64,000 bases of DNA from Janibacter limosus (GTDB lineage: Bacteria; Actinomycetota; Actinomycetes; Actinomycetales; Dermatophilaceae). Made by a program: the position numbers and the translations under genes. Below, in pieces: positions 1 through 64,000 of this stretch; the stretch's first letter is position 1; every line of letters begins with the position of its first letter. The notes under the pieces were generated by a model. It was not told the origin of the DNA and did not search any database. It was given only the letters and a program-made list of their open reading frames with translations. The stretch is from the NCBI RefSeq assembly GCF_004295485.1, contig NZ_CP036164.1, positions 2,046,001 to 2,110,000 of the forward strand. Reading direction: 5' to 3'.

Positions 1-720
1 GCCCTCGATGCCGACGAGCTGGCAGCCGCCTTCTCGGAGCGGACCCGGGTCGTCGTCGTCAACAGCCCCCACAACCCGACCGGCAAGGTCTTCTCCCCGA
101 AGGAGCTCGAGGTCGTCGCCGACCTGGCCCGTCGCCACGACGCGTGGGTGATCAGCGACGAGGTGTACGAGCACCTGACCTTCGGGGTGGCGCACACCCC
201 GATCGCGACCCTGCCGGGGATGTGGGAGCGCACGCTGACGATCGGGTCGGCCGGCAAGTTCTTCTCCGTCACGGGGTGGAAGGTCGGCTGGCTCAGCGGG
301 CCCGCCGAGCTCGTGCGGGCCGCGCAGGTGGTCCGTCAGTACCTGACCTTCACCACCGCCTCCCCCTTCCAGCACGCCGTGGCGCACGCCCTGCGGATGG
401 GGCCCCAGCCACTCGATGACCTGCGCGACTCGCTGCGCGCCCGGCACGACCTGCTCGTGACGGGCCTGAGGGCGGCTGGCCTCGAGGTGCGTCCCTCCCA
501 GGGCACCTACTTCGTCGTCGCGGATGCCGCGCCGCTCGGTGTCACCGACGCACTGCAGTGGTGTCTGGACCTGCCGGCCGCTGCCGGCGTCGCCGCAGTG
601 CCGGTCTCCGTCTTCTGCGACGACCCGAGCGAGACGGCCACGCTGGTGCGCTTCGCCTTCTGCAAACGCGACGAGGTGCTCCAGGAGGGGTGCCGGCGGC
701 TGGCTGCCTTCACCGGCTGA
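1..720 (+). CDS. Aminotransferase class I/II, C-terminal part (start lies before the window)
   Basis: This is the C-terminal ~239 residues of a fold-type I PLP-dependent aminotransferase, open from the first base to TGA at 718-720. The NSPHNPTGKVF segment (fragment residues ~21-31), the SDEVYE motif that holds the cofactor aspartate, and SAGKFFSVTGWKVGW with the Schiff-base lysine (fragment residue 86) are all present. The NSPHNPTGKVF form is typical of the kynurenine/methionine aminotransferase (YbdL-like) subgroup. Substrate cannot be fixed from sequence; transamination of aromatic or sulfur amino acids is an inference from the subgroup. The missing N-terminus is only a window-edge effect. 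Confidence 0.9.
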   Translation, partial: ALDADELAAAFSERTRVVVVNSPHNPTGKVFSPKELEVVADLARRHDAWVISDEVYEHLTFGVAHTPIATLPGMWERTLTIGSAGKFFSVTGWKVGWLSGPAELVRAAQVVRQYLTFTTASPFQHAVAHALRMGPQPLDDLRDSLRARHDLLVTGLRAAGLEVRPSQGTYFVVADAAPLGVTDALQWCLDLPAAAGVAAVPVSVFCDDPSETATLVRFAFCKRDEVLQEGCRRLAAFTG

Positions 721-807
721 TCCACACGTCGGGCGGCCTCTGCGCCCCCGTCCACAGGTCGACCCCGGACCGCGCTCGCTCCTGACGAAGGGCGGACGCT
801 GGGTCCC

Positions 808-1305
808 ATGAGCACCACCCCCTTCCTCGCCCTCCTCGTCGCCGGGGCCCTCGTCGGCGGCCCACCACCCGCGACGTCCGGGAGCCGCTGGTCCTGGCCC
901 GTGGGTGACGGGGACCGACCGGCGCTCGCGGCGCCCTTCGACGCGCCGGAGGAGCAGTGGGGTCCCGGCCATCGGGGCATCGACCTCGCGGCATCGGTCG
1001 GCGAGCGGGTCACGGCCGTCGACACGGGTGTGGTGACGCATCGCGGTCGCATCGCCGGCCGCGGGACCGTCACCGTGACGCACGCGAGTGGCGTGCGCAG
1101 CACCTACGAGCCGGTCGACTCGACGCTCCGGGTGGGCGACCGCGTCGAGCGCGGTCGGGGCATCGGCCGGGTCGGCGACGAGGCCGGCCACTGCGCACCG
1201 GCCACCTGCCTGCACCTCGGCGCCAAGCGGGGGGCGACCTATCTGGATCCACTGACCTTCTTCGGTGTCCGACGGGTCATCCTGCTGCCGGTGCCCTCGG
1301 TCTGA
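808..1305 (+). CDS. M23 family metallopeptidase (LytM-like), small exported form
   Basis: A 165-residue protein with a hydrophobic N-terminus resembling a signal peptide and a single M23 domain (~residues 30-160). The first zinc-binding motif GHRGIDLA (HxxxD) is intact. The second motif reads CLHLG, so the usual HxH has Cys at its first position while the zinc-ligand His remains. The same CLHWG-like form is, from memory, common in the actinobacterial M23 protein found near rpsB. Members cleave or bind peptidoglycan cross-bridges outside the membrane; the Cys raises doubt about full activity. GACGCT lies seven bases before the ATG, suggesting a leaderless start. It converges on xerC. Confidence 0.85.
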   Translation: MSTTPFLALLVAGALVGGPPPATSGSRWSWPVGDGDRPALAAPFDAPEEQWGPGHRGIDLAASVGERVTAVDTGVVTHRGRIAGRGTVTVTHASGVRSTYEPVDSTLRVGDRVERGRGIGRVGDEAGHCAPATCLHLGAKRGATYLDPLTFFGVRRVILLPVPSV

Positions 1306-1324
1306 CCTCCTCCACGCCGGTGGG

Positions 1325-1354
1325 GTATCGCCGGTGGAGGTATCGCCGGTGGAG
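1325..1354. repeat. 15-bp direct repeat, two copies, between M23 gene and xerC
   Basis: The unit GTATCGCCGGTGGAG occurs twice back to back (1325-1339 and 1340-1354) in the convergent intergenic space. A third partial GCCGGTGG precedes it. No function is apparent. Confidence 0.7.
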
Positions 1355-2341: not shown

Positions 2342-2369
2342 CCGACCACCGTCCCACGAGCCCGGGCGT

Positions 2370-2428: not shown

Positions 2429-3616
2429 TCACGAGGGTCCGGGCCCGCGGCGCCAGCCACCCTCCTCGTCCTGACGGGCCCAACCCTGCAAGGACATCAC
2501 CGAGAGCTCGGCGAGCACCTCCTCCACGGGCAGGACGAGCTCGTGGGCCACGACTCCCGGGGAGCGTCCCGCACGAGCCCTGAGCAGGTCGTGGATACGT
2601 CGCTGGGCGGTGGTCATGGCGTCGAGCTCGCGCGCCGGGCCCAGCTGCTCGACCGGCTGCTCGAGGGCGTCACCGACCCGGGCGGCCAGGGCGAGGACGT
2701 CTGCGGTGTCGGTCACGAGGTGGGCGCGGGTCTTTTGGATCCACTCGTGGCAGCCGGCCGAGGACATCTGCGTCACGGGGCCGGGGACGGCCCCGACGGG
2801 CCGCCCGAGGGACTCGGCCCAACCGGCGGTGTTGAGCGAGCCCGAGCGCAGCCCCGCCTCCACGACGACGGTGGCCGCCCCGAGCGCCGCGATGATCCGG
2901 TTGCGAGCCAGGAACCGGTGGCGCATGGCCACCGTCCCGGTCGCGAGCTCGGTGATGACCACCCCGCGCTCGGCCACCGCGTCGATCAGGCGACGGTTGC
3001 CCTCGGGGTAGGCGCGATCAGGACCGCAGGGCAGCACCGCGATGGCAGGGCCGTCGACGGTCAACGCGCCCTGGTGGGCCGCGGCGTCGATGCCGTAGGC
3101 CGCACCCGACACGACGGTCCACGAGCGATGGGCCAGGCCCGCCCCCAGCTCGCGTGCGATGGCCTCGCCGTACCCCGTGCTCGCCCGGGACCCGACGACG
3201 GCGACGGCCCGGGCGGCAAGATCGGCGAGGCAGCCCTGCCCGCGCACGTGGAGCAGGTGGGGCTCGATGTCGGGGTGGGACAGGCACGTCGGCCAGTCGG
3301 CGTCACCGGGGATGACCACCCGCGCACCCAGACGGGTCACTCGGTCGAGCTCGGCATCGACATCGACGCCGGCCACATGGGCGCGGGCGCTGGCGCACCG
3401 GGGCAGGTCGCCGTCGACCAGGCGGTGCCAGGCCTCGACGTGACCGATGCTCATCACCTCGTCCAGCAGCTCTGCCCGAGCATCGCTGGTCCGCTCGCGG
3501 CGATGCTCCAGCACGCGCGACCACGCGACCCGGGCGCGGCGCTCGTCGGTCTCGACCTGCGCGTGCGCCCGCGCCACCTGCGCCGCGTCGGGCTGCGATC
3601 CACCCCGCCCGCTCAT
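2429..3616 (-). CDS. dprA: DNA-processing protein DprA
   Basis: A 395-residue single-strand-DNA-binding protein that loads RecA on incoming DNA during natural transformation. The Rossmann-like core is clear: GSRASTGYGEAIARELG, then SGAAYGIDAAAHQGAL, with LPCGPDRAYPEGNRRL further on. The C-terminal ~70 residues look like the winged-helix (DML1-like) domain. The ATG at 3616 overlaps the comM stop in an ATGA, which fixes the start; longer upstream reading lies over comM and is not credible. Together with comM it forms a competence-associated pair that is also kept in bacteria not known to be competent. Confidence 0.95.
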   Translation of the reverse strand: MSGRGGSQPDAAQVARAHAQVETDERRARVAWSRVLEHRRERTSDARAELLDEVMSIGHVEAWHRLVDGDLPRCASARAHVAGVDVDAELDRVTRLGARVVIPGDADWPTCLSHPDIEPHLLHVRGQGCLADLAARAVAVVGSRASTGYGEAIARELGAGLAHRSWTVVSGAAYGIDAAAHQGALTVDGPAIAVLPCGPDRAYPEGNRRLIDAVAERGVVITELATGTVAMRHRFLARNRIIAALGAATVVVEAGLRSGSLNTAGWAESLGRPVGAVPGPVTQMSSAGCHEWIQKTRAHLVTDTADVLALAARVGDALEQPVEQLGPARELDAMTTAQRRIHDLLRARAGRSPGVVAHELVLPVEEVLAELSVMSLQGWARQDEEGGWRRGPGPS

Positions 3617-5160
3617 GCCGCCACCGCGCCCTGGGTCCGGTACATGAGGGCCAGACCCACGTCGGTCGGGCTCGGTGTCGGGCGGCCGTTGAGGTCGGCG
3701 CTCGTCCACGCCAACCGCAACACCCGGTCGTATCCCCGCAGGGTCACCTGCCCGAGGTCGAGAGCGCGGTCCAGCGTCGCGGTCGTGGCGGACGGGAGGC
3801 GCCAGGGGGCACGGCGCAGGACCGGCCCCGGGACCTGGCTGTTGAGCTGCCAGCCGTGCGCGGCCCACCGGCGGCTCTGAGCGGCCCGCGCCACGAGGAC
3901 CCGCTGCGCCACCGCTGCACTCGAGTCCGACGGGGCCTCGTGCAGCTCGGCCAGGCTGACCTTGGGCACCTGCACCTGGATGTCGACGCGGTCGAGCAGC
4001 GGCCCGCTCAGCCGGGCCGCGTACGCGCGCCGCTCCGTCGGCCGGCACCGGCAGAGCAGGCCCTTGCCATGCCCCTCACCGCACGGGCAGGGGTTGGCAG
4101 CCAGCACGAGCTGCACCCGCGCCGGGTACACGACCTGCTCACGGGCGCGGGCGATGACGACCTGCCCCGACTCCAGCGGCTGGCGCAGCGCCTGCAGGAC
4201 CGCCCCGCCGAACTCCGCCGCCTCGTCGAGGAAGAGGACCCCGTGATGCGCCTGTGACACCGCCCCCGGGAGCACCACGCCGGTCCCGCCGCCCACGAGG
4301 GCTGCGACGCTCGCGGAGTGGTGCGGGGCGACGAAGGGAGGTTGTCGGTCGATGCCGGAGGTCGGCACGGCACCGATGAGCGAGCGCACCGCGAGGGTCT
4401 GCAGGGCCTGCTCCCGGGTCAGCGGCGGCAGGATCGTCACCAGCCTCTCGGCGAGCATCGTCTTGCCCGACCCCGGAGGGCCGTTGAGCAGGACGTGGTG
4501 CCCCCCGGCCGCCGCGAGCATGAGCGCCGCACGCGCCTCGTGCTGGCCGGACACGTCAGCGAGGTCGACCCGCCGTGCCCCGCTCTCGCGACCCGCCGCA
4601 GCCGCTGGGGCGGCGACGGCCGCCGGGGGGAAGCTCCCGCCGCGCGCAGTCTGGCCGTAACCCCGCACCACCTCCTCGAGGGTGCGGGCGGTGCAGACCC
4701 GCAGCCCCTCGACCAGCTGGGCCTCCGCCACATCGTCGGGAGCGACGAGGACCTGCTCGCACCCGGCGCGCTGGGCCGCGAGCACGGCCGGCAGCACGCC
4801 GGCGACATGGCGCAACCGGCCGTCGAGGCCCAGCTCGGCCAGGTGGACGACGGGGCGCACCGCGTCGGCCGGCAGCTCACCGCAGGCGGCGAGCGCCGCC
4901 ACCGCGATGCCGAGGTCGAAGCCGGTGCCGTGCTTGGGGATCGCCGCCGGTGACAGGTTGAAGGTCAGCTGCCGCGAGTTGAGGGAGAACCCGGCCGAGA
5001 TGGTGGCAGCCCGCACCCGCTGAGGAGCCTGCCGCAGGGCCGTGTCCGGCAGGCCGCTGATCTCGAAGGCGGGCAGGCCCTGCCCCACGTGGCACTCGAT
5101 GTCGACGAGATGACCGGCGATGCCGCGCAGGGCCACCCCTCGCGTCACGCCCACGCCCAT
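3613..5160 (-). CDS. comM: YifB/ComM family Mg-chelatase-like AAA+ ATPase
   Basis: A 515-residue protein with an N-terminal ChlI domain (~residues 20-140), an AAA+ core with Walker A GPPGSGKTMLAERL (~residue 230) and Walker B FLDEAAEF, and a C-terminal Mg-chelatase subdomain. A four-Cys cluster (PCPCGEGHGKGLLCRC) in the core is typical of the family. In Vibrio and Haemophilus ComM is a helicase that promotes branch migration during transformation. The start ATG at 5160 lies two bases after the yraN stop, so the genes are translationally coupled and continue into dprA. Confidence 0.93.
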   Translation of the reverse strand: MGVGVTRGVALRGIAGHLVDIECHVGQGLPAFEISGLPDTALRQAPQRVRAATISAGFSLNSRQLTFNLSPAAIPKHGTGFDLGIAVAALAACGELPADAVRPVVHLAELGLDGRLRHVAGVLPAVLAAQRAGCEQVLVAPDDVAEAQLVEGLRVCTARTLEEVVRGYGQTARGGSFPPAAVAAPAAAAGRESGARRVDLADVSGQHEARAALMLAAAGGHHVLLNGPPGSGKTMLAERLVTILPPLTREQALQTLAVRSLIGAVPTSGIDRQPPFVAPHHSASVAALVGGGTGVVLPGAVSQAHHGVLFLDEAAEFGGAVLQALRQPLESGQVVIARAREQVVYPARVQLVLAANPCPCGEGHGKGLLCRCRPTERRAYAARLSGPLLDRVDIQVQVPKVSLAELHEAPSDSSAAVAQRVLVARAAQSRRWAAHGWQLNSQVPGPVLRRAPWRLPSATTATLDRALDLGQVTLRGYDRVLRLAWTSADLNGRPTPSPTDVGLALMYRTQGAVAA

Positions 5161-5162
5161 CG

Positions 5163-5540
5163 TCACGCCCCCACGACGTGGTGGACGGCGTAGTTGCCCT
5201 CGTGGTCGCGGTGCAGGGCGACGATGTCGATCCGCACCCCGCGCGAGGACACCTGGTGCTCGGCGAGCCACCGCCCGGCGAGCCGTCGCAGGCGGGCCAG
5301 CTTGGCCCTGGTGATGGCCTCGATCGGCTCACCGAAGGCGCGGCTGCGCCGGGTCTTGACCTCGCAGACGACGACGGTGTCCCCGTCGCGCAGGACCAGG
5401 TCGATCTCTCCCGTGCTGCACCGCCAGTTGCGGTCCAGCACCACCATGCCGGCTCGCGTCAGATGGCGCTCGGCAAAGGCCTCACCATCGGCTCCCACGC
5501 TGGCCCGTGTGGGCTCGGCATCCGTCCTCGTGCGGGTCAT
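5163..5540 (-). CDS. YraN family (UPF0102) putative endonuclease
   Basis: A 125-residue protein of the Holliday-junction-resolvase-like nuclease fold. GEIDLVLRDGDTVVVCEVKTRR holds the E..D..ExK acidic triad of this nuclease superfamily (mature residues ~45-66). The molecular role of YraN is unproven; association with comM and dprA in one run points to DNA recombination. The ATG at 5540 (MTRTRTDAEP) is chosen because residues before it lack family similarity. Confidence 0.85.
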   Translation of the reverse strand: MTRTRTDAEPTRASVGADGEAFAERHLTRAGMVVLDRNWRCSTGEIDLVLRDGDTVVVCEVKTRRSRAFGEPIEAITRAKLARLRRLAGRWLAEHQVSSRGVRIDIVALHRDHEGNYAVHHVVGA

Positions 5541-5961: not shown

Positions 5962-6743
5962 CTGGACCTCCCTTCGCTCACCGTGCCGGCGAGGAGGTCA
6001 TGGCCCTCGCCCGGTCGACCCTCATCATCTCCCACCGCGTCACTGCGGCCGCGCACCGGGGGCACTCCCGGGAGGGACCACGAGCGGCGGTGCTCGACGC
6101 AGGGCCCGTGCACCCTCAGGGCGTCCAGGTGGGCGCTCGCCGAGTAGCCCTTGTTGTCCTCCCAGCGGTAGTGGGGGTAGACGTCCGCGAGCTCGACCAT
6201 CTGCTGGTCGCGCTCGACCTTGGCCAGGACGCTGGCGGCGGCGACGCTGCTGCAGCGCATGTCGGCCTTGATCATGGTGCGCACGGGCGGGGTCGAGGCG
6301 CCATCCCCCAGCCCCGCGAAGAGGCCGACCTCCTGCGGATCAGTCAGCCAGTCGTGGTTGCCGTCGAGAAGCACGAGGTCGGGGACGACGTCCAGCTGCG
6401 CCAGGGCGCGGGTCCCCGCGAGCCGCAGCGCGGCGATGATGCCGATCTCGTCGATCTCGGCCGGCCCGGCGTGGCCCACGGCGTGTGCGAGCGCCCACCG
6501 GCGCAGGCGCGGCACCATCGCCACCCGCGCGGCGGGCGTCAGCAGCTTGGAGTCGCGCACCCCGGCGGGGGCCGTGCGGCAGGTCTCGTCGATGACGACG
6601 ACCCCCACGCTCACCGGTCCCGCCAGGGACCCGCGACCCACCTCGTCCATCCCGGCGAGCACGCGGTGGCCGGCACGCTGCAGCTCACGCTCGACGCGCA
6701 GGCTGGGGCGCCCCGGACGGGTGGCTCGACGGACGGTGGTCAC
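5958..6743 (-). CDS. rnhB: Ribonuclease HII
   Basis: A 261-residue RNase HII that removes ribonucleotides embedded in DNA and RNA primers. The catalytic motif [13 protein letters not shown] supplies Asp-Glu, a second Asp is in [11 protein letters not shown], and the [11 protein letters not shown] segment matches the C-terminal conserved block. The start used is GTG at 6743, which overlaps the lepB stop (GTGA, 6740-6743). The ~25 extra N-terminal residues before [17 protein letters not shown] are basic and may be partly dispensable. It forms an operon with lepB upstream and the DUF2469 gene downstream. Confidence 0.94.
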
Positions 6744-7669: not shown

Positions 7670-8350
7670 TCAGGAGCCGAGACCACCGATGCGGTCGAGG
7701 GGCCAGTACCGCCACGACACGTGGCCGACGACGTCGTCCACCGGCACCATGCCGCCGCCCGGGTCGCCGAGGTGGGCGCGGGAGTCGGCCGAGTCGCTGC
7801 GGTTGTCCCCCAGGACGAAGAGGCGCCCCTGCGGGACCACGACGTCGAAGGGGGCGTCGCAGGCACGGCTGCCGGGCGCCAGCCAGGGCTCGTCGACCGA
7901 CGCGCCGTTGACGACGAGACCGCGCGCGGGCGTGCACGCCACGCGGTCGCCGCCGACGCCGGCGACCCGTTTGAGGAAGTCCTGCTCCCCCAGGTCGATG
8001 GACAGTGCGGAGGCCGCGCCGGAGAGGACCCTGCCGATGAGTCCGTCCGAGACGAAGGGGGTGCGGTCGGCCGCGGCGAAGGTCGAGGTCCCGTCGAAGA
8101 CGATGACATCGCCCCGCTCGACCTGCGAGGCACCGATCTTGGTGACCACGACGCGGTCCCCGGCAGCGATCGTGGGAGCCATCGAGGCGCTGGGCACGTG
8201 GAAGGACTCCATCACGAAGATCCGCACGAGCATCACGAGCAGCACTGCGACCGCGATCTCGACCAGGAGACGGCGGGCGGGACGCACGTCGACCCCCACC
8301 GGAGGTCCGGCGGGGGTCGAGAGGTCATGCTGGGCGGGCTCGGTCGACAT
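7670..8350 (-). CDS. lepB: Signal peptidase I (second paralogue)
   Basis: A 226-residue signal peptidase I with an N-terminal membrane helix (LLVEIAVAVLLVMLVRIFVM), the Ser motif VPSASMAPTIAAGDRVVV and the Lys motif DFLKRVAGVGGDRV, then GDNRSDSADSR. The start ATG at 8350 (MSTEPAQHDL) gives the usual topology; reading further upstream would enter rplS. Tandem lepB copies at this place are common in actinobacteria and may differ in substrate preference. Confidence 0.93.
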   Translation of the reverse strand: MSTEPAQHDLSTPAGPPVGVDVRPARRLLVEIAVAVLLVMLVRIFVMESFHVPSASMAPTIAAGDRVVVTKIGASQVERGDVIVFDGTSTFAAADRTPFVSDGLIGRVLSGAASALSIDLGEQDFLKRVAGVGGDRVACTPARGLVVNGASVDEPWLAPGSRACDAPFDVVVPQGRLFVLGDNRSDSADSRAHLGDPGGGMVPVDDVVGHVSWRYWPLDRIGGLGS

Positions 8351-9297: not shown

Positions 9298-10497
9298 TCA
9301 GGGACGCAGGCGACGGGTGAGATCGACCGTGCCGGGCCCCTCGCCGGGTCCCACGACGCGGTAGCCGGCCTTCTTGTAGAACTTCAGCAGACGCGGCTGG
9401 TCGGCGCCGGTGTTGAGCCACAGCGTGGTGACCCCTGCCGGTGCCAGCGCCTCGGCATGCGCGAGGAGAGCGCGTCCGAGACCGCGCCCCTGCAGGTCGG
9501 GAGCGATCATCAGTCGACCGATCTGCCAGGTGGTCGCTTCCTGCGGGTCGCGGCGCACGCGCACCGACCCGACGAGACGGCCGTGGGACCGGAAGAGGTG
9601 GGTGCTCCACTGCTCGAGGTTGTCGGCGACGGCGGCCTCGTCCTCCGCCGGGGCCCCCCACCAGTGCTGCTCCGGCGTCACCATCTCGATCCAGCAGGCC
9701 TTCTGCAGCACCGCCAGCTCGGCGGCGTCGGCCCGGCTGGCGACGGAGTGGTCGAGACCCGCGAGCTCCCTGGTCGTGGCCGCCACGCTGAGCAGGTCGG
9801 GACGGCGGGCGGCCGTGCGGGTCAGCCGCTGCTCGTGCCGCCACTGCGCGATGGCCGCGTGGTTGCCGCCGAGCAGGACCTCGGGGACGTCTCGCTCCAC
9901 GCCGGCGGCGTCGGTCCAGGACGACGGCTTGGTGTAGATGGGGTACTCGAGCAAGCCCCCTTCGTGCGACTCCTCGACCAGGGACTCGGCGTTGCCGACG
10001 ACTCCCGGCAGGAGCCGGCCGATGGCCTCGACCATGGCCAGGACGGCGACCTCGCCGCCGTTGAGCACGTAGTCCCCGAGCGAGACGACCCGCACCTCCA
10101 TGCGGTCGGCGGCCCACTCGTAGACACGCTCGTCGATGCCCTCGTAGCGACCGCAGGCGAAGGCCAGCCACGGTGCCCCAGCGAGCTCCCTGGCCATCGT
10201 CTGGCTGAAACGCTCGCCACCGGGGCCGGGGACGACCAGCACGGGAGCAGCGCCCGTGCTCTCGTCCGCCGAGTCGAGCACGTGGGTGAGCGCCTCGCTC
10301 CACGGCTGCGGCTTCATGACCATGCCCGCTCCCCCGCCGTACGGGGTGTCGTCGACGGTGCGGTGCCGGTCGTGGGCGAAGTCGCGCAGGTCGTGCACGC
10401 GCAGGTCGATCAGCCCGTCACGTCGGGCCTTGCCGATGAGCGAGATGTCGAGGGCGTCGAGGTACTGGGGGAAGATCGAGACCGCGTCGATGCGCAC
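9298..10497 (-). CDS. trmD: tRNA (guanine37-N1)-methyltransferase TrmD fused to a GNAT acetyltransferase domain
   Basis: A 399-residue protein, about 150 residues longer than ordinary TrmD. Residues 1-~240 are TrmD, which methylates G37 of tRNA to prevent frameshifting: [29 protein letters not shown], the trefoil-knot motif [15 protein letters not shown] and [11 protein letters not shown] are all present. Residues ~250-399 form a GNAT fold with the acetyl-CoA loop [20 protein letters not shown] and the final [13 protein letters not shown]. The two parts are in one continuous frame. The acetylated substrate is unknown. It follows rimM after three bases. Confidence 0.93.
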
Positions 10498-10500: not shown

Positions 10501-11049
10501 TCACTCCCCCTTCGCGTCGAGGTCGAGCAGCCCGGGGGGCGCGTCGACGACGATCCGCCCGCCCGCGGGGTCGACCTCCGGGACGATCTCCTCGACGAAG
10601 GGGACGAGCGCCTCCGAGCCGTCGGGACGACGCACCCGCAGCCGGTCCTGGGCGGCGCCGAGCTCCAGGGCGACGACCTCGCCGAGCACCGTCCCGGAGG
10701 GGTCGACCGCCTGCAGGCCCACAAGGTCCTCCTCGTACCAGCCCTCGTCGTCCTGCGTCGGGTCCGGCTGGTCCAGCGCCAGCACCAGCCGGGTGCCGCG
10801 CAGGGACTCGGCGCCCGTGCGGTCGGGGATGCCCTCGAAGCCCAGCAGCCAGACGCCCTGATGGACGCGGGTCGTCGCGAGCGTCAGCTGGCGGGGGACG
10901 CCGGACCCCTCGCTCGCGCGGGTGTCGAAGACGGTCCCGGGCACGAAGCGCGCCTCGGGGTCGTCGGTGTGCAGCTGCACGGTGACCTCACCGCGCAGGG
11001 CGTGGGGCTTGCCGATGCGGGCGACCACGTGGCCATCGGTGCGACTCAT
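10501..11049 (-). CDS. rimM: Ribosome maturation factor RimM
   Basis: A 182-residue 16S rRNA processing factor that binds S19 during 30S head assembly. The N-terminal RimM domain shows ARIGKPHALRGEVTVQLHTDDPEARF, followed by the PRC barrel with WYEEDLVGLQAVDPSGTVLGEVVAL and VPFVEEIVPEVDPAGGRIVVD. The ATG at 11049 is chosen because similarity begins right there. It lies between khpA and trmD in the conserved rpsP-khpA-rimM-trmD-rplS order. Confidence 0.95.
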   Translation of the reverse strand: MSRTDGHVVARIGKPHALRGEVTVQLHTDDPEARFVPGTVFDTRASEGSGVPRQLTLATTRVHQGVWLLGFEGIPDRTGAESLRGTRLVLALDQPDPTQDDEGWYEEDLVGLQAVDPSGTVLGEVVALELGAAQDRLRVRRPDGSEALVPFVEEIVPEVDPAGGRIVVDAPPGLLDLDAKGE

Positions 11050-12098: not shown

Positions 12099-12141
12099 AC
12101 GAAGGGGGGAGGTCGCCGCCGCGGTGGCCTCCCCCCTTCGT
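12099..12141 (-). terminator. Hairpin terminator after the Rrf2 gene, built from a CGAAGGG pair
   Basis: A perfect 14-bp stem pairs ACGAAGGGGGGAGG (12099-12112) with its complement at 12128-12141 around a 15-base loop, starting seven bases after the rrf2 stop. There is no T tract. The stem consists of two inverted copies of the dispersed CGAAGGG word. Confidence 0.75.
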
Positions 12142-12147: not shown

Positions 12148-12609
12148 TCAGCGGTTCTCCCAGGCCCCGGGGGCGGCGACGGCGGTCCGGACCGCAGCGG
12201 GGAAGTCGCCCGCGAGCACGTCGGCGAGGCTCGTGCCGTCGAGGACCGACCGGACGCTGGAGCGCACCGCGACCCACAGCGTCGGCAGGTGCGTGGCCGC
12301 GCCGTCGTAGCTGGTCGCCTGCGGCCGCTCCCCGCGGACCTCGGCGAGGGGGCCGTCGACGGCCCGGATGACGTCACCGACCGCGATCCCGCTCGCCGGC
12401 CGCGCGAGCAGGTACCCGCCGCTGGCCCCCATGCGGCTCGTCACGAGCTCCGCGCGACGCAGGTCGGCGAGGATCGCCTCGAGGAACTTGCGCGGCAGGT
12501 CCTGATCGGCGGCCAGCCGCACGACGGAGACCGGTGTCCCCCCTTCGCCGGAGGCCGCGAGGGTCAGCATCGCGCGGACGGCGTAGTCCGACCGGGCAGA
12601 GATGTCCAT
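12148..12609 (-). CDS. Rrf2 family transcriptional regulator
   Basis: A 153-residue Rrf2-type winged-helix repressor starting [56 protein letters not shown] is the conserved recognition-helix and wing region. The three Cys that bind Fe-S in IscR/NsrR-type members are absent, which puts it nearer the sulfur-responsive CymR-like members; that is inference. It is divergent from a TauE/SafE exporter, and a palindrome in the shared region is a candidate operator. GATACT lies seven bases before the ATG. Confidence 0.9.
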
Positions 12610-13698: not shown

Positions 13699-13740
13699 GC
13701 CCACCGGCCCCCGGGATGTGGACGGCCGGGCGAAGGGGGG

Positions 13741-15726: not shown

Positions 15727-16510
15727 TCAGTGCCCGCAGTGCGGCGACGGTCACCTCGGGCTGCTCCGAGTGGACCCAGTGCCCGGCGTCCTTGACGGTG
15801 ACGTGCCGCATCCGCGGGAAGAGACGTCGCATCTGCGCCTCGTCCTCGTCGGTGACATAGCGCGAGCGGGCTCCCGAGAGCCACAGCACGGGCTCGTCGA
15901 AGGGGGGCAGCCCCGCGATCTCGTCCTGCGGCCACCCACCGATCGTGGCGATGTCCCGCCCGATGACCTCGAGGTTGGGCTGCCAGCGCCAGCCACTCCC
16001 TTCGCGTCGCAGGTTCTGCAGCAGGAAGGCCCGCACGCCGGCATCGGGCGCGGCCTCCTGCATGGCGGCATCGGCGTCGGCGCGCGACTCGATCGCGTCG
16101 AGGTCCATGGCCTGCATCGCGGCGATGTAGGTCTCGAACTCGGTGAAGCTCGTCGTGGCCGCCGGGGAGATGTCGACGACGCACAGCCGTGACACCAGCT
16201 CGGGGTGGCGCAGGGCGAGGAGCATCGCGATCTTGCCGCCCATGGAGTGCCCGACGACGACCCATGGCTCATCGGCGTCGATGCCGCGCAGCGTGTCCGC
16301 CACGATGTCTGCGTCGGCCACGTAGTCGAAGCGATCGGTCCACCCGGAGCGCCCGTGGTCGGGCATGTCCAGCAGCGTCGGGCGAGCGATGTCGGTCAGG
16401 CCCTTGGCGATCTGGGTCCAGTTGCGTCCCTGCCCGAAGAGCCCGTGGCAGAAGGCGATCCGAGGACCGGTGTCACCCGAGGAAACCGCGTGGAGGGTCG
16501 GGGAGCTCAC
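15710..16510 (-). CDS. Alpha/beta hydrolase
   Basis: A 266-residue alpha/beta-hydrolase-fold protein. The oxyanion region FCHGLFGQGRNW, the nucleophile elbow VVGHSMGGKIA (Ser), and a C-terminal His in DAGHWVHSEQPE are visible, so the triad is complete. It resembles esterase YbfF-type proteins; substrate unknown. The start is GTG at 16510, seven bases after the ffh stop, so it is probably co-transcribed with ffh. Confidence 0.88.
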   Translation of the reverse strand: MSSPTLHAVSSGDTGPRIAFCHGLFGQGRNWTQIAKGLTDIARPTLLDMPDHGRSGWTDRFDYVADADIVADTLRGIDADEPWVVVGHSMGGKIAMLLALRHPELVSRLCVVDISPAATTSFTEFETYIAAMQAMDLDAIESRADADAAMQEAAPDAGVRAFLLQNLRREGSGWRWQPNLEVIGRDIATIGGWPQDEIAGLPPFDEPVLWLSGARSRYVTDEDEAQMRRLFPRMRHVTVKDAGHWVHSEQPEVTVAALRALITSDR

Positions 16511-18137: not shown

Positions 18138-18174
18138 CCGGCCAAGGGTACTTGCCCGCGGGCACTCCCTTCGC

Positions 18175-20542: not shown

Positions 20543-22317
<1,775 letters not shown>

Positions 22318-33145: not shown

Positions 33146-33238
33146 GTCTCCCCCTTCGACCGTCGACCACGGTGGCCGCCCTGCTGACGACGCTATCGAT
33201 GAGGGCGGTCTGCGGTCCGCGGTTTTCCACAGGGAGGC

Positions 33239-33529
33239 TCACTTCTCGACGAAGCCGGCGATCCCTCCCTTCGCGCTGGCGTCCTGCCGGACCACGGAGG
33301 TGACGCTGCCGGGTCGCCGTGTGGTGGAGGGCTGCTCGCGCAGCAGCTCCTCGATCTGCTCCAGCGCCGAAGGGGGACCCTCCGCCACGACCTCGACCCT
33401 CCCGTCGTCCATGTTGCGGGCATGACCGACGAGGCCGAGCTCGAGGGCCCGGGCTCGGGTCCACCACCGGAAGCCGACTCCCTGAACCCGACCACGGACG
33501 AAGAAGGTCGCGCGCTCCGTGCTGCTCAT
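33239..33529 (-). CDS. acyP: Acylphosphatase
   Basis: A 96-residue enzyme hydrolysing carboxyl-phosphate bonds. The catalytic Arg is in [12 protein letters not shown] and the catalytic Asn in [17 protein letters not shown]; length and ferredoxin-like fold pattern are normal. Actinobacterial acyP commonly sits between mutM and smc, as it nearly does here. TAGTTT lies exactly seven bases before the ATG, indicating a leaderless message. Confidence 0.93.
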
Positions 33530-38060: not shown

Positions 38061-38081
38061 AACCGGCCGAAGGGAGCCGCC

Positions 38082-39744: not shown

Positions 39745-39819
39745 GCGTCCATGATGCGCCATCGCCTCGGCCGTGATCCACCCGGGCAGCAGCAGCCGAG
39801 CACCGGGCGAAGGGAGCGA

Positions 39820-43803: not shown

Positions 43804-43887
43804 GTACCGGTTGCCCGGTGACGCGCCCCCTTCGGGTGGAGCGATCGAGCAGCATCACTCACTTACTGACGAACACAGGAGAAACCC

Positions 43888-44135: not shown

Positions 44136-44144
44136 CGTGCCCAG

Positions 44145-44234: not shown

Positions 44235-44246
44235 GCGAAGGGGGGG

Positions 44247-45251: not shown

Positions 45252-45294
45252 CGGTCACGCTCCGCTCGGACGAAGGGGGGTCAGCACCGCACGG

Positions 45295-46949: not shown

Positions 46950-48056
46950 ATGGAGCAGCAGGAGCACGACGCGCAGACCGATCTGTCCCCCCGCACCAAG
47001 GTCGTGGCCCTCGGCCGGCCGCAGCGTGCGCCCGGCGCCTCCTTGAACCCCCCGGTCACCTTCACCTCGACCTACATCCAGGACGGTGCGGTCAACTACG
47101 CGCGCGTCGACAACCCGACGTGGACCCCCTTCGAGGAGGCCGTCGGCGAGCTCGAAGGGGGGCGAGCCCTCCTCTTCGCATCGGGCATGGCGGCCGTGCA
47201 CGCCGCGCTGTCGCTCGTCCCCACGGGCGGGACCGTCGTCGCTCCCGCGGCGGCCTACAACGGCGTCGTCGTCTCCCTGACCGAGGCGCAGGCCGAGGGT
47301 CGGGTCGCCGTGCGCTGGGTGGACGTCACCGACAGCGACGCGGTGATCGCGGCGCTGCCGGGTGCCGACCTGCTCTGGCTCGAGTCGCCCTCCAACCCGC
47401 TGCTGGAGCTCGCCGACATCCCCGGCCTGACCGCCGCGGCCCACGAGGCGGGCGCGCTCGTCGCGGTCGACAACACCTTCGCCACGCCCCTGCTGCAGCG
47501 CCCGTTGGAGGACGGCGTCGACGTGGTCGTGCACTCCGCGACGAAGTACCTCGCCGGGCACTCCGACGTCATCCTCGGTCTGACCGTCACCGCCGACACC
47601 GACGGTGGGCGCGAGCTGCACACCCGGCTCGCGCGCCGGCGCACCCTCGCCGGTGCGATCGCCGGCCCCATGGAGGCCTGGCTGGCGCTGCGCGGGCTGC
47701 GCACCCTCTCCCTTCGTCTGGAGCGGGCGTGCGCCAACGCCGCCGACCTCGCCGAGCGGCTGGGCACCCACCCGCGGATCGCGCGCGTGCGCTACCCCGG
47801 GTGGGGGGCGATCGTCTCCGTGGACGTCGCGGGTGACGGCGACGGCGCAGCGGCCGCCGAGGCACTGACCGCCGGCACCCGGATCTGGTCCGCGTCGACG
47901 AGCCTGGGCGGCGTCGAGTCGCAGCTCGAGCGCCGCCGTCGCCAGCCCGGCGAGCCGGAGGCCGTGCCGGTCAACCTGGTGCGGCTGTCCGTCGGCGTCG
48001 AGGACGTGGACGACCTGTGGGCCGACCTGCGGCAGGCCCTCGACGCGATCGGCTGA
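46950..48056 (+). CDS. Cys/Met metabolism PLP-dependent enzyme (cystathionine gamma-synthase/lyase family)
   Basis: A 368-residue PLP enzyme of the trans-sulfuration family. ARVDNPTWTPFEEAVGELEGGRALLFASGMAA gives the phosphate-binding region, LLWLESPSNPLLELADIPGL and AVDNTFATPLLQRPLEDGVDVVVHSATKYLAGHSDVILG give the cofactor Asp and Schiff-base Lys (SATKY). The exact activity (synthase, lyase or gamma-lyase) is not settled by sequence. Its insertion beside ddl and gpsA is not part of the conserved block. Confidence 0.9.
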   Translation: MEQQEHDAQTDLSPRTKVVALGRPQRAPGASLNPPVTFTSTYIQDGAVNYARVDNPTWTPFEEAVGELEGGRALLFASGMAAVHAALSLVPTGGTVVAPAAAYNGVVVSLTEAQAEGRVAVRWVDVTDSDAVIAALPGADLLWLESPSNPLLELADIPGLTAAAHEAGALVAVDNTFATPLLQRPLEDGVDVVVHSATKYLAGHSDVILGLTVTADTDGGRELHTRLARRRTLAGAIAGPMEAWLALRGLRTLSLRLERACANAADLAERLGTHPRIARVRYPGWGAIVSVDVAGDGDGAAAAEALTAGTRIWSASTSLGGVESQLERRRRQPGEPEAVPVNLVRLSVGVEDVDDLWADLRQALDAIG

Positions 48057-51156: not shown

Positions 51157-51188
51157 GACGAAGGGGGCGCCGCAGCACCCCCTTCGTC
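51157..51188 (-). terminator. leuD terminator made of an inverted CGAAGGG pair
   Basis: GACGAAGGGGG (51157-51167) pairs with CCCCCTTCGTC (51178-51188) around a ten-base loop, ~30 bases after the leuD stop. Confidence 0.78.
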
Positions 51189-51821: not shown

Positions 51822-53249
51822 TCAGGCCGTCACGAGGTCGGCGTCGGCGGGGGTGGGCTCCAGGTCGGCGGGACTCGACAGCGTGCCGCGCACGGCTGTG
51901 GCCGCGGCGACGAGCGGGCTGACGAGGTGCGTGCGACCGCCCTTGCCCTGGCGTCCCTCGAAGTTGCGGTTGCTCGTCGACGCCGAGCGCTCCCCCGGCG
52001 CGAGCGTGTCGGGGTTCATGCCCAGGCACATCGAGCAGCCGGGCAGGCGCCACTCGGCGCCGGCCTCGGTGAAGACCTTGTCCAGGCCCTCGGCCTCGGC
52101 CTGCAGGCGCACGCGGGCCGAGCCCGGCACGACGAGCATGCGCACGGAGTCGGCGACCTGACGTCCCTTGATGACCTCCGCGACGGCGCGCAGGTCCTCG
52201 ATGCGGCCGTTGGTGCACGAGCCGACGAAGACCGTGTCCACCGCGACCTCGCGCAGCGGGGTGCCGGCCGTCAGGCCCATGTACTCCAGCGCCTTGGCGG
52301 CGTTGGCGCGCTCGTTCTCGTCGGGCATCGCCTCGGGGTCGGGGACCGCGTCGCCGAGCGGCGAGCCCTGCGCGGGGTTGGTACCCCACGTGACGAAGGG
52401 GGTGAGCGTCGAGGCGTCGATGTCGACCTCGGCGTCGAAGACGGCATCGTCGTCGGAGCGCAGCGTGCGCCAGTGCTCGACGGCCGCGTCCCAGTCGGCC
52501 CCTGCCGGGGCGTGGTCGCGGCCCTTGAGGTAGTCGAAGGTCGTGTCGTCGGGGGCGATCATGCCGGCGCGGGCGCCGGCCTCGATCGACATGTTGCACA
52601 CGGTCATCCGGGCTTCCATCGACAGCGCCTCGATGGCCTCGCCGCGGTACTCCAGGACGTAGCCCTGGCCGCCGCCAGTGCCGATCTTGGCGATGACCGC
52701 GAGGATGACGTCCTTGGCGGTGACACCGGGCTGCAGCTCACCGGTCACGTTGATCGCCATGGTCTTGAAGGGGTTGAGCGAGAGCGTCTGCGTGGCGAGC
52801 ACGTGCTCGACCTCGCTCGTGCCGATGCCGAAGGCGAGCGCGCCGAAGGCACCGTGGGTGCTCGTGTGGCTGTCGCCGCAGACGACGGTCATGCCCGGCT
52901 GGGTCAGACCCAGCTGGGGGCCGACGACGTGGACGATGCCCTGCTCGGCATCCCCCATCGGGTAGAGCCGCACGCCGAACTCGGCGCAGTTGTCCCGCAG
53001 CGTCTCGACCTGGATCTTGCTCACCGGGTCGGTGATGGGCCCGGGCGTCGTCGGGACGTTGTGGTCCTCGGTCGCGAGGGTGAGGTCGGGTCGACGGACC
53101 TGGCGACCGGCGATGCGCAGCCCCTCGAAGGCCTGCGGACTCGTCACCTCGTGCAGGAGGTGCAGGTCGATGTAGAGGAGGTCGGGCTCCCCGTCGACGT
53201 GTCGGACGACGTGCTCGCCCCAGACCTTCTCGGCCAGCGTTCCAGCCAT
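51822..53249 (-). CDS. leuC: 3-isopropylmalate dehydratase large subunit
   Basis: A 475-residue aconitase-family enzyme. [32 protein letters not shown] is a signature; the three Fe-S Cys are in VGSCTNGR and [10 protein letters not shown]. The ATG at 53249 has AGAGAG upstream. It is divergent from the IclR regulator gene, the classical ndgR-leuCD arrangement. Confidence 0.97.
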
Positions 53250-54118: not shown

Positions 54119-54140
54119 CGAAGGGGGGCTCCCCCCTTCG
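54119..54140 (+). terminator. ndgR terminator made of an inverted CGAAGGG pair
   Basis: CGAAGGGGGG (54119-54128) and CCCCCCTTCG (54131-54140) face each other two bases apart, directly after the ndgR stop. Confidence 0.75.
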
Positions 54141-54833: not shown

Positions 54834-56384
<1,551 letters not shown>

Positions 56385-57235: not shown

Positions 57236-57264
57236 GGACGAAGGGGGTGCCCCCCCCTTCGTCC
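57236..57264. terminator. Bidirectional terminator made of an inverted CGAAGGG pair
   Basis: GGACGAAGGGGG (57236-57247) pairs with CCCCCTTCGTCC (57253-57264) around five bases in a convergent space. Confidence 0.8.
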
Positions 57265-57270: not shown

Positions 57271-58167
57271 TCAGGTCAGGAGGTCGTCGAGCACCCGACC
57301 GCACTCGTCGCGCAGCCGGCCCTGGGGCCCGAGCCCGATGGCGAGCGCCAGTCGCAGCGCCCACGCCCGGGCCCGCGTCCACGTCGCGTCGTCGTGGGGC
57401 CGCACCGCCTGGACCTCGGCGATGAAGTCGTCCGCTCCCTTCGCGTCGAAGAGGAGGAAGGCAGCGGCCAGGTCGCACGCCGGGTCGCCACTGGTGACAT
57501 CGCCGAAGTCGATGAGCGCCACCGGGTCCAGCAGGACATTGCCCGCGTGGACGTCGCCGTGCACCCACACCGGCGGGCCGCCCCATGCGGGAGCGCTCGA
57601 CCAGGACTCCCAGCGCCGGGTCACCTCCCCGGCGTCCACCTCGCGTCCGTGCGGCAGGTGGATGGGTCGCGACGCGAGAGCCGCGATCGCCTCCCGGGTG
57701 GCGTCCTCGCGGTCGGCGAGCGGCACGCCGCGATAGGCGTTCGTGGGCGGGTGCTCGCCGACCGCCACAGGTTGGTGGAGGGCGGTCAGAGCCCTCGCCA
57801 GCTGCGGGGCGAAGGGGGCCCGGTCCGCCACGACCACGTCGAGGGCGACCGTGCCGGGCAGGTGGCGCACGACCGACCAGTGCCACGGGTAGTCCCCCTG
57901 CGGCCGGCCGGCGTGGACGATGTCGGGCACGGCCACGGGCAGCCGGGGAGCGAGCAGCGGCAGCACCTCCTGCTCGTGCCGCACGAGATCACCCGCGAGC
58001 GCGCGCCGGGGACAGCGGACGAGCAGGTCGTCACCGAGGGCCAGGATCTCGTTGTCCCAACCGTGGGCGAAGGGGGCGAGCGCCCGGCCGTCGAGCAACG
58101 CCGGGGCCTGCTGCCGCAGCAGGCCCGTCACGAGGTCGGTCGTCACCTCGACCGTGTCCGGGTACAC
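57271..58167 (-). CDS. Aminoglycoside phosphotransferase (APH) family kinase
   Basis: A 298-residue protein-kinase-like fold. VHGDVHAGNVLLDPVALIDFGDVTSGDPACDLAAAFLLF holds the catalytic Asp (HGDxHxxN) and the metal Asp (DFGD). The family includes antibiotic-modifying, macrolide and small-molecule kinases, so resistance should not be assumed. The start is GTG at 58167, three bases after the ynfA-like stop. Confidence 0.85.
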   Translation of the reverse strand: MYPDTVEVTTDLVTGLLRQQAPALLDGRALAPFAHGWDNEILALGDDLLVRCPRRALAGDLVRHEQEVLPLLAPRLPVAVPDIVHAGRPQGDYPWHWSVVRHLPGTVALDVVVADRAPFAPQLARALTALHQPVAVGEHPPTNAYRGVPLADREDATREAIAALASRPIHLPHGREVDAGEVTRRWESWSSAPAWGGPPVWVHGDVHAGNVLLDPVALIDFGDVTSGDPACDLAAAFLLFDAKGADDFIAEVQAVRPHDDATWTRARAWALRLALAIGLGPQGRLRDECGRVLDDLLT

Positions 58168-59285: not shown

Positions 59286-59292
59286 GAACCCC

Positions 59293-59314: not shown

Positions 59315-59321
59315 GTCTGCG

Positions 59322-60191
59322 ATGACCTCCACGACCCTGCCCCGCGACGAGTGGCTCGCCCGCGCCCGGGCGCACGAGGCTGCGGTCGACGAGCTGACCA
59401 CCGGTCACCGTGGTCGTCGCGCCCGTGGCGAGCGGCACCCGGTCGAGGACTTCCTCTTCGAGTACTACGCCCACCGCCCCTCCCACCTGCGGCGCTGGCA
59501 CCCCGGCCCGGGCGTCGAGCTCGCGGACGCCCCCGAGTACGAAGGGAGGTCCGGTTACGTCGTCGACGATGACGGATCGGCCCGCCTGGACGTGGCCGGC
59601 TTCGTGGGGCGAAGGGAGCGGACCGTCACCTTCGTCAGGCAGTTGCTCACCGCGACGCTGTCGCGGCCGGGGACCCACGACTGCTTCGGGCTGCACGAGT
59701 GGGCGATGGTCCACGGCCTGCAGCCGGGCGAGCAGCGGCACGAGCAGCTCCCCCTTCGCCTCGACCGGGCGCAGACCGACGCCGTCGTGGAGTCGCACCG
59801 GATCAAGTGCAGCCATGCCGACGCATACCGCTTCTTCACACCGACAGCGCTGGGGCTCAACTCCCTTCGCCCGACCCGCGACGACCAGCTGGAGCACGAG
59901 CAGCCGGCCTGCCTGCACGCGGGGATGGACACCTACAAGTGGGCCTTCAAGCTCGCTCCGGCGATGCCGTCGGAGATCACGCTCGACGCCTTCCGCCACG
60001 CGCTGCGCATCCGGCGGCTCGACATGCAGGCCTCCCCCTACGACGTCTCGGACTTCGACCTGGACCCCGTCGCGATCGAGACGAGCGAGGGCAAGGCGGA
60101 GTACGTCGCCCGCCAGCGGGAGCTGATGGTGACGTCCAACTCCCTTCGCCGGCGGCTGCTCGACGTCTGCGACCTGCTGCTGCCCGAGTGA
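59322..60191 (+). CDS. Actinobacterial protein annotated as 3-methyladenine DNA glycosylase
   Basis: A 289-residue soluble protein. I recognise it as the conserved actinobacterial family usually labelled 3-methyladenine DNA glycosylase (HPVEDFLFEYYAHRPSHLRRWHPGPG, GLHEWAMVHGL, IKCSHADAYRFFTPTA, LDMQASPYDVSDF). It shows no helix-hairpin-helix motif that I can see, so the activity is by label only. The recurring CCCTTCG word lies three times in it, each coding Leu-Arg with the rare codon CTT. Confidence 0.75.
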   Translation: MTSTTLPRDEWLARARAHEAAVDELTTGHRGRRARGERHPVEDFLFEYYAHRPSHLRRWHPGPGVELADAPEYEGRSGYVVDDDGSARLDVAGFVGRRERTVTFVRQLLTATLSRPGTHDCFGLHEWAMVHGLQPGEQRHEQLPLRLDRAQTDAVVESHRIKCSHADAYRFFTPTALGLNSLRPTRDDQLEHEQPACLHAGMDTYKWAFKLAPAMPSEITLDAFRHALRIRRLDMQASPYDVSDFDLDPVAIETSEGKAEYVARQRELMVTSNSLRRRLLDVCDLLLPE

Positions 60192-62322: not shown

Positions 62323-62391
62323 CAGACAAATGTATGCCAGTCGACCCACTCGGTAGGACAGGTGTCTGTGGCGATGGCCACGACCGGCACC

Positions 62392-62397
62392 TACCGT
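62392..62397 (+). promoter_or_regulatory. TAnnnT box seven bases before putA
   Basis: TACCGT is followed by seven bases and the ATG at 62405. The minus-strand TACATT of the PucR gene is at 62329-62334, so the divergent control region spans only about 60 bp. Confidence 0.6.
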
Positions 62398-62404
62398 CGA
62401 AGAC

Positions 62405-64000
62405 ATGACCACCACCTCTGCGCCGACCGACCCGAGCACCGCAGCCTTCGCCCCCTTCGTCGAGGACGCGATCGCCCTCGCCGAGCGGTGGTCCGCTGCC
62501 GCCCACGCCGGGGAGACCAGGCGCGAGGCGCAGACGACCGGTCAGTTGGCCGCCCTGCTGTCCGACCACGCCGGGCTCGACCTCGCGGTCTTCTTCGTCG
62601 ACCGCGTCGCCCGCCCCGAGGACAACACGGTCGCCGCGACTGCGCTGAACAGGATCACCGCGTCGGACTCCGCGTCCTTCCTCGGCACCCTCGACCGCAG
62701 CCTCCTCGGCCTCGGTGCCCGTGCGGCGAAGATCGCCCCCCAGGTCGTCGTGCCCGCCGCCCGCGCCCGGATGAAGCAGATGGTCGGCCACCTCATCGTC
62801 GACGCCCGTGACCCGAAGCTCGGCAAGCACCTGGCTGCCGCCCGCGAGGACGGGTTCCGACTCAACATCAACCTCCTCGGCGAGGCCGTGCTCGGCGAGA
62901 GCGAGGCGGCCGCGCGCACCGAGCGCACCCGCGAGATCCTCGAGCGCGCCGACGTCGACTACGCCTCGATCAAGGTCTCCTCGCTCGTCAGCCAGATCAG
63001 TACCTGGGACACCGACGGCACCGTCGAGCGCTGCCTGACCCGGCTGCGGCCGCTCTACGAGACCGCCAAGGCGTCCACGCCGCACGCCTTCGTCAACCTC
63101 GACATGGAGGAGTACCGCGACCTCGAGATGACGATGGAGGTCTTCATGACCCTGTTGTCCGAGCCGCAGTTCCACGACCTCGAGGCCGGCATCGTCCTGC
63201 AGGGCTACCTGCCCGACGCCCTGCCCGCGATGGAGCGGCTCGTCGACTTCGCGATCGGGCGCCGCGACGCCGGCGGCGCTCCGATCAAGATCCGCCTCGT
63301 CAAGGGCGCCAACCTCGCGATGGAGCGCGTCGAGGCGGCCATGCACGGCTGGGAGCAGGCGCCCTACCCGACCAAGGCCGACGTCGACGCCAACTACCTG
63401 CGCTGCATCGAGCGCGCGCTGCGCCCCGAGCTCGCCGGGGCCCTGCGCCTGGGCGTCGCCTCGCACAACCTCTACGACGTCGCCGCCGCGCACCTGCTCG
63501 CGCAGCACCGTGGTGTCCAGGACTCCCTCGACGTCGAGATGCTCCAGGGCATGTCGCCCGCGCAGGCCCGGGCCGTGCGCGACGAGGTCGGCACGGTGAT
63601 CCTCTACACGCCGGTCGTCGCGCCCAAGGACTTCGACGCAGCCGTCTCCTACCTCGTGCGCCGCCTCGAGGAGACCGCCTCGCCGGAGAACTACATCCAC
63701 GCCTCCTTCGCCGACGACCCGGCCGCCATGCCCGACCAGGAGCGCCGCTTCCGCGCCAGCATCGAGGACATCGGGTCCGTCCCCGTCGGCCCGCGCCGCT
63801 CCGCCGAGCGCGCCCCGATCGGTGACGACTTCGACAACACCCCCGACTCCGACCCGGCCCTGCCCGCCACCCGTGAGTGGGCCGCCCGCGCCGTCACCGC
63901 CGCGCGCCCCGAACCGACCTCACCCCACCTGGCCATCACCGAGGCGGTCGACGACGTCGTCGACGTCGCGCGCACCGCGCAGCAGAGTTGGGCGGCGCGG
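62405..64000 (+). CDS. putA: Bifunctional proline dehydrogenase / glutamate-semialdehyde dehydrogenase, N-terminal part
   Basis: 532 codons are present and the frame is still open at the window edge. The proline dehydrogenase barrel is clear: LNINLLGEAVLGESEA, DYASIKVSSLVSQIS, AFVNLDMEEYRDLEMTMEVF, GIVLQGYLPDALPAMERL, IRLVKGANLAMERVEA and VASHNLYDVAAAHLLA. After ENYIHASF the RFRASIEDIGSVPVGPRR segment begins the linker into an aldehyde dehydrogenase domain, so this is the fused PutA type, oxidising proline to glutamate. It lacks the DNA-binding domain of enterobacterial PutA, which fits regulation by the divergent PucR gene. Confidence 0.93.
   Translation, partial: MTTTSAPTDPSTAAFAPFVEDAIALAERWSAAAHAGETRREAQTTGQLAALLSDHAGLDLAVFFVDRVARPEDNTVAATALNRITASDSASFLGTLDRSLLGLGARAAKIAPQVVVPAARARMKQMVGHLIVDARDPKLGKHLAAAREDGFRLNINLLGEAVLGESEAAARTERTREILERADVDYASIKVSSLVSQISTWDTDGTVERCLTRLRPLYETAKASTPHAFVNLDMEEYRDLEMTMEVFMTLLSEPQFHDLEAGIVLQGYLPDALPAMERLVDFAIGRRDAGGAPIKIRLVKGANLAMERVEAAMHGWEQAPYPTKADVDANYLRCIERALRPELAGALRLGVASHNLYDVAAAHLLAQHRGVQDSLDVEMLQGMSPAQARAVRDEVGTVILYTPVVAPKDFDAAVSYLVRRLEETASPENYIHASFADDPAAMPDQERRFRASIEDIGSVPVGPRRSAERAPIGDDFDNTPDSDPALPATREWAARAVTAARPEPTSPHLAITEAVDDVVDVARTAQQSWAAR

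Follow-up and report, generated by a model that had tools for sequence, protein, structure and literature searches.

The window discussed here is a stretch of 64,000 nucleotides (positions 2,046,001-2,110,000) from the chromosome of the actinobacterium Janibacter limosus, a single contig of 3,545,254 bases. Among other genes it carries ffh, glnD, leuC, gltX, dprA, comM and the gene of an SMC protein, whose best segment is 91% identical to its counterpart in Janibacter indicus, with the following database rows at 71% or less. Scattered through it on both strands is the nine-base word CGAAGGGRG (R stands for A or G), which is the subject of this work. An earlier inspection of the letters of the window (below, the sequence-only reading) had described the 7-mer CGAAGGG/CCCTTCG as a dispersed, selected word resembling an uptake or recombination signal, with about 74 copies (43/31). 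The counted number is 76 (43 on the plus strand and 33 on the minus strand) and the excess is real: 100 dinucleotide shuffles of the window yield 10.25 copies on average and 20 at most. An order-2 Markov model derived from the window itself leaves a smaller excess for the 7-mer (76 vs 26.6 expected) than for the 9-mers CGAAGGGGG (37 vs 1.7) and CGAAGGGAG (17 vs 1.4), hence it is the 9-mers that carry the excess, and 54 of the 76 copies run on into GG or AG. The exact word is CGAAGGGRG, usually with G-R in front, and not the 7-mer, so the dispersed word of the sequence-only reading stands while its unit does not. The weak strand bias seen in the 7-mer also vanishes, as 26 of the 54 sites of the 9-mer lie on the plus strand and 28 on the minus strand.

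The word in the chromosome

On the whole contig CGAAGGGRG occurs 1185 + 1180 times on the two strands (2365 copies), compared to 21 + 14 (35 copies) for the reversed-word control. It is thus a strict and non-polar 9-mer with a frequency of about one per 1.5 kb. The counts of codons, genes and pairs draw on the window and on 40 evenly sampled stretches of 20 kb each, together 864 kb or 24% of the genome. This sample contains 592 sites, while a third-order Markov model expects 43; the two forms of the word contribute 368 vs 22.5 (CGAAGGGGG) and 224 vs 20.3 (CGAAGGGAG), and the counts in the sample are therefore far from Markov expectation, in agreement with the over-representation originally claimed. 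The sequence logo reads G (70%), R (79%), CGAAGGG, G/A (62/38%), G. Most one-base neighbours of the word are at or below expectation, with the exceptions of CGAAGGGGA (6.2x), GGAAGGGGG (3.9x) and CGAAGGGGT (3.0x).

The word is maintained within genes at the expense of the preferred codons. Where it requires CTT, 61 of 75 Leu codons are CTT, compared to 479 of 23,146 elsewhere in the 864 kb, and in four contexts that differ from the word at one position CTT is found in 0/23, 0/27, 1/10 and 0/20 cases. Likewise, GAA accounts for 72 of 76 Glu codons in the word context vs 675 of 13,436 elsewhere, and for 3/43, 5/6 and 13/26 in three changed contexts, the latter two of which are near-words. Therefore, it is the word rather than codon preference that sets these bases, as is expected of an uptake sequence, and the suspicion that CTT would be equally frequent outside the word can be dismissed. 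The five CTT codons offered as examples by the sequence-only reading lie within 2 bases of the places given and all read CTT-CGN, but only two of them, at 34351 and 47710, belong to genes supported by Pfam. The minus-strand site 34349..34357 (given earlier as 34353) makes CTT-CGC in an acyltransferase gene, and the minus-strand site 47708..47716 (given as 47711) makes CTT-CGT in the gene of a Cys/Met metabolism enzyme dependent on pyridoxal phosphate. For the remaining three, at 59752, 59863 and 60142 (minus-strand sites 59750..59758, 59861..59869 and 60140..60148, the last given as 60143), the gene itself is uncertain, because the open reading frame (ORF) 58656-60191 on the plus strand has no Pfam match and its first part overlaps an FAA hydrolase on the minus strand.

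Placement, symmetry and inverted pairs

The density of sites in the 864 kb is 0.56/kb within called genes (395 sites) and 1.23/kb outside them (197 sites), a 2.2x difference; the genes were called by a home-made caller based on G+C in codon frame, and the DNA outside genes is for this reason probably over-called. Otherwise the placement is near-random and only slightly over-dispersed, with a mean of 13.45 and a variance of 16.2 sites per 20 kb in the 40 stretches. One stretch (3,344,001-3,364,000) combines just one site with a G+C content of 0.64, as acquired DNA would show, but since site density follows G+C overall (r = 0.64), this is weak evidence of acquisition. Eight of 14 sites compared with J. 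indicus are kept, with too few controls for a comparison. Polarity was scanned with the origin placed at every possible position: the largest leading-lagging difference for any placement is 24 of 592 sites, below the permutation mean of 45. A strand bias suggested by genome-wide match listings appears, when set against the 864-kb counts, to be an artefact of the listing.

Sites closer than 40 bp are strongly ordered: 33 pairs of the 864 kb are in the order that forms a hairpin, 7 are in the opposite order and 5 point in the same direction. Of the hairpin-ordered pairs, 11 are intragenic according to the gene calls, 9 separate convergent genes, 8 separate genes of the same direction, 1 separates divergent genes and 4 are at stretch ends. 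The window contains four of this kind, whose folding energies were compared with shuffles; three of the four are clearly more stable. The pair at 12100..12140 (12100 plus, 12132 minus) forms one long hairpin of -45.9 kcal/mol (z -5.8), those at 51159..51186 (51159 plus, 51178 minus; -25.9 kcal/mol, z -4.1) and 57239..57261 (57239 plus, 57253 minus; -28.9 kcal/mol, z -4.2) are flanked by genes called convergent, and the one at 54119..54140 (54119 plus, 54132 minus) folds at -22.3 kcal/mol (z -1.7). The opposite-order pair of the window, at 47125..47161 (47125 minus, 47153 plus), does not fold beyond shuffles (z -0.85).

Words of related genera

All 16 genomes of the genus that were searched, that of J. 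limosus included, are enriched in CGAAGGGRG, with 444 to 1312 copies per strand. In a sample of 149 genomes from 53 genera of the family, enrichment is confined to Janibacter (g1, nine genomes of nine) and one further genus (g38, three of three), and the other genomes never exceed 68 copies per strand. In a 19-row ComEC tree the four carriers that were included group together as a single clade (support 97/96), and 41 sites from two g38 genomes have the same flanks as the Janibacter logo.

The relatives carry other words, known to us from 20-200 kb per genome. The k-mer scan of 40 stretches covered all but contigs of 0.3 to 5.7 kb (L128, L130, L133, L148 and L162). A second dense word, CGGCATAC, was found in Terrabacter tumescens and Serinicoccus kebangsaanensis (23 kb loci), among other genera, and in Flexivirga caeni, where it is accompanied by CGCCATAC and CGTCATAC. 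In one genome (G074) its copies are distributed 77/79 between the strands when pooled over nine stretches, with single stretches ranging from 5/13 to 10/5, i.e. without strong polarity, and like the Janibacter word it occupies rare codons, as 16 of 48 ATA codons in 200 kb of this genome lie inside it. Variant words, each counted in a single genome of another genus, comprise CGGCATCC in G041 (56 vs 6.2, in 60 kb), CGGCGTAC in G054 (58 vs 11.3) and CGCCGTAC in G083 (42 vs 9.3). Among the 137 non-carrier genomes, the total of CGGCATACG is at least 200 in 77, between 60 and 199 in 13 and lower in 47, and at least one genome in 30 of the 51 other genera reaches 200. The carriers of CGAAGGGRG have just 1-7 copies of CGGCATACG per strand (0-6 in g38). 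Elsewhere in the order, 272 genomes representing 18 other families (from a set of 297, at least 90% complete) show no enrichment of either word. Janibacter massiliensis (L200), which the ComEC tree places apart from the carrier clade, lacks both words; its match to ComEC is limited to residues 267-791 of the Janibacter protein, and the surrounding 20 kb gave no match to ComEA. The counts give good support both to the existence of the word and to the replacement of one word by another among the genera.

Two observations were made outside the family. Marmoricola sp. (15 vs 2.45) and Nocardioides insulae (19 vs 1.91) have an excess of CGGCGTAC, which hints at similar words beyond the family, and words like ACACGTCAACA occur 10-11 times in 22.7 kb of Nocardioides speluncae, where less than one is expected.

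Competence genes

Of the transformation genes announced by the sequence-only reading, both are present in the window: a PF02481 match marks dprA in the minus-strand ORF 2429..4048, the true start of which is not fixed, and comM (yifB) occupies 3613..5271 on the minus strand (TIGR00368). The search for comEA and comEC that it recommended was also rewarded, as the genome has ComEC with ComEA adjoining, the latter below the NCBIfam but above the Pfam cut-offs (HHH and SLBB domains). ATPases of the PF00437 (T2SSE) family score over the cut-off at three loci with Tad-like neighbours; two of these adjoin a T2SSF (TadB/C-like) match, and next to the third lies a match to Ssd that does not reach the cut-off. 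By eye, a Flp-type pilin with the motif G-xxxx-EY was recognized at L187:4409-4600 and a short pilin-like protein, matched by no NCBIfam model, at L089:7560-7820. The competence set (ComEA, ComEC, DprA, ComM and the Tad-like loci) is thus present, although it does not discriminate genomes with a word from those without. According to the consulted part of a study of Micrococcus luteus, both tad clusters are required for transformation in that species, and the combination of tad with ComEA/ComEC is common in Actinobacteria (PMC4322843).

Remaining sites and repeats of the window

Sites were identified as sequence matches to CGAAGGGRG, and their strand is the one on which the word reads in this form. 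Within recognized genes, plus-strand sites are found in ffh (16931..16939), glnD (19526..19534), leuC (52394..52402) and gltX (54946..54954), and minus-strand sites in the glnD ORF (20265..20273) and again in gltX (55490..55498). The other single sites on the plus strand are 4332..4340, 7846..7854, 8053..8061, 13731..13739, 15898..15906, 23390..23398, 26669..26677, 33368..33376, 38068..38076, 39407..39415, 39808..39816, 44236..44244, 45271..45279, 57810..57818, 58068..58076, 59540..59548 and 59610..59618. Those on the minus strand are 5968..5976, 9956..9964, 10506..10514, 12539..12547, 15996..16004, 18165..18173, 21749..21757, 24572..24580, 33150..33158, 33265..33273, 36070..36078, 42889..42897, 43826..43834, 45170..45178, 57435..57443 and 62451..62459.

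The window also contains repeats of other kinds. A tandem repeat at 44144-44242 consists of 3.1 copies of a 32-bp unit with the core ACGACCTTAAGGAGATG; this 17-mer is present in 25 copies in the 864 kb, often in short arrays with a period of 31-32 bp, and constitutes a dispersed minisatellite, which may partly account for the palindrome GTGCGCAC, 3.6x over expectation in the same sample (234 vs 64.7). A perfect tandem repeat at 14841-14944 has 3.0 copies of a 35-bp unit. The region 50205-50501 is dense in CTTCTTGGCC/CTTCTTCGCC repeats and perhaps encodes the lysine-alanine tail of a minus-strand protein, possibly HupB. Searches of plasmid and phage sequences with two regions of the window returned two and one records, respectively, at 75-80% identity, uninformative with respect to the word.

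Alternative explanations

The most serious rival to an uptake function is a word comparable to the highly iterated palindrome (HIP1) of cyanobacteria, maintained jointly by biased repair and a modification enzyme, or serving as a methylated marker of self DNA, with a different enzyme in the relatives. It owes this position to the fact that alternate HIPs also replace one another: HIP1 is a very dense word with an unproven role, and in the part of the report available to us some strains have alternate words in its place, and each of these is matched by a methyltransferase (PMC4390886); apart from uptake sequences, no closer case of one word replacing another is known. However, HIP1 is a palindrome linked to orphan methyltransferases, whereas both CGAAGGGRG and CGGCATAC are asymmetric, and a shared methyltransferase of the PF01555 family, the one tested, was rejected, as it scores over the cut-off in only 4 of the 12 carriers (G003, G009, G015 and G088). 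Moreover, the depletion of the one-step neighbours of the word is spread over many positions and not limited to one transition (the lowest being CGAAGGAAG, 2 vs 23, and CGAAGGTAG, 1 vs 11), an argument that is itself weak because the word inflates the expectation. Altogether, we consider a HIP1-like origin improbable, yet deserving to be taken seriously. An only slightly less credible proposal, and still an unlikely one, is that of a Chi-like site that switches a nuclease of the RecBCD or AdnAB type to recombination, which the sequence-only reading had named as an alternative. Chi sites are typically dense, G-rich, short words, which CGAAGGGRG resembles, and a RecC match (PF04257) is present in all 12 carriers among the 149 genomes. 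In contrast to Chi, the Janibacter word has no leading-strand bias for any origin, is switched between lineages and favours DNA outside called genes. RecC was also rejected as the reader of the sister word CGGCATACG: a match is found in 21 of the 77 genomes rich in this word and in 22 of the 47 with fewer than 60 copies, whereas 56 of the 77, including the richest of all (G022, 98% complete), have none (AdnAB was not part of this search), and hence RecC can hardly read CGGCATACG. Of the Chi-like alternative the RecC match in the carriers survives, but a Chi read by RecC is unlikely.

With somewhat less credence still we regard the word as the target of a nucleoid protein or of one that organises the chromosome. 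The near-random placement and the lack of polarity would agree with such a role, but about 2,400 strict 9-mers, mostly intragenic in the sample and replaced between genera, would call for an abundant DNA-binding protein that evolves fast. Very little speaks for a mere terminator stem or a by-product of composition. The 33 close pairs in hairpin order could be taken for the former, but most of the sampled sites (395 of 592) are within called genes, and a compositional origin is incompatible both with the third-order Markov expectation and with genomes of other genera that have a similar G+C content and lack the word; we reject both variants. Finally, the FtsK-orienting function also raised by the sequence-only reading has next to no probability: although the word is short and G-rich, like the FtsK-orienting polar sequences GGGNAGGG or GAGAAGGG, the polarity that such sequences possess is refuted by the strand symmetry at every possible position of the origin.

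A putative uptake sequence with dialects

Among the explanations considered, we find it somewhat probable that the word CGAAGGGRG serves as a DNA uptake (self-recognition) sequence specific to its lineage, with dialects among the relatives. Such a role is preferred here to the alternatives because the relatives carry other words, as is the case for the dialects of Neisseriaceae. In the consulted part of the work on the latter, DNA uptake sequences (DUS) are dense, intragenic, associated with terminators as inverted pairs and different in related species, and the inverted pairing is seen in every genome that carries a dialect (PMC3630211). The receptor of Neisseria is the type IV minor pilin ComP, as stated in the available portion of PMC6370729. 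The present case differs in that the host is an actinobacterium, the ATPase loci of the type II/IV filament family look like the Tad type (further type IV pilus genes lay outside the search), the word of Janibacter does not resemble that of the relatives and the uptake role is deduced from sequence. The nine-base core of the uptake signal sequence of Pasteurellaceae occurs about once per 1-2 kb, as does the Janibacter word; the sequence, phylum and machinery are different, and uptake, proven there, is here a prediction. With the competence system of Micrococcus luteus our case shares a similar gene set, with ComEA next to ComEC and at least two tad-like clusters; in two papers on that species the phrase "uptake sequence" gave 0 matches.

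Mechanistically, the competence apparatus (a Tad pilus feeding ComEA and ComEC) would have a DNA receptor at the cell surface that binds the word, DNA containing it would be taken up preferentially, and the recombination of such DNA would enrich the word by molecular drive. Some of the inverted pairs may have been recruited as hairpins, probably transcription terminators, and changes of the receptor would lead to different words in different genera. Thus, the comparison with uptake sequences made by the sequence-only reading can be maintained in so far as the word is dispersed, non-polar, dominant over codon choice and accompanied by dialect-like words in relatives, the uptake role itself being an interpretation.

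Several observations weigh against an uptake role. ComEC is present in 145 of the 149 genomes of the family whatever their word, the four misses being drafts of many contigs, and therefore having the machine does not tell whether a genome has a word; in the same vein, Ssd (TIGR03815) matches all 149 genomes, 8 of them over the cut-off, as well as 14 of 14 controls. Genomes such as G025, G039, G055 and G096 have ComEA and ComEC but no clear word in the 20-60 kb seen of each. The Janibacter word has no clear resemblance to those of its relatives, a jump larger than between most dialects of Neisseriaceae. As to the hairpins, the 11 pairs within called genes are where a terminator is unexpected, and CGGCATAC has no excess of hairpin order (1 vs 3 in G074, 4 vs 5 in 14 other loci). 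No receptor was identified, the pilin-like proteins having been listed with no search aimed at ComP-like candidates, and the literature search found no report of uptake or transformation in these bacteria.

Implications

To our knowledge, proven uptake sequences are limited to Neisseriaceae and Pasteurellaceae, both Gram-negative, and we know of no self-recognition code for DNA uptake in the group studied here; among the matches listed for titles and abstract openings in open-licence PMC there was no report of an uptake sequence or a Chi in Actinobacteria. The Janibacter clade appears to have switched to a word unlike that of its relatives. It is tempting to go further and propose, as a possibility in which we have slightly less confidence than in the uptake role itself, that the family, Gram-positive Actinobacteria in which Tad pili would serve competence, possesses a code with the dialects CGGCATAC, CGGCATCC, CGGCGTAC and CGCCGTAC, the common word of which was replaced by the unrelated CGAAGGGRG on the stem of the Janibacter clade, and that uptake sequences evolved independently outside Gram-negative bacteria, with a turnover of receptors so rapid that it could be observed. 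If this is true, sequence-specific sex would have arisen again, on a different pilus, in an actinobacterial family, which would offer many natural pairs of dialects for finding the receptor and a handle for the transformation of these little-studied bacteria.

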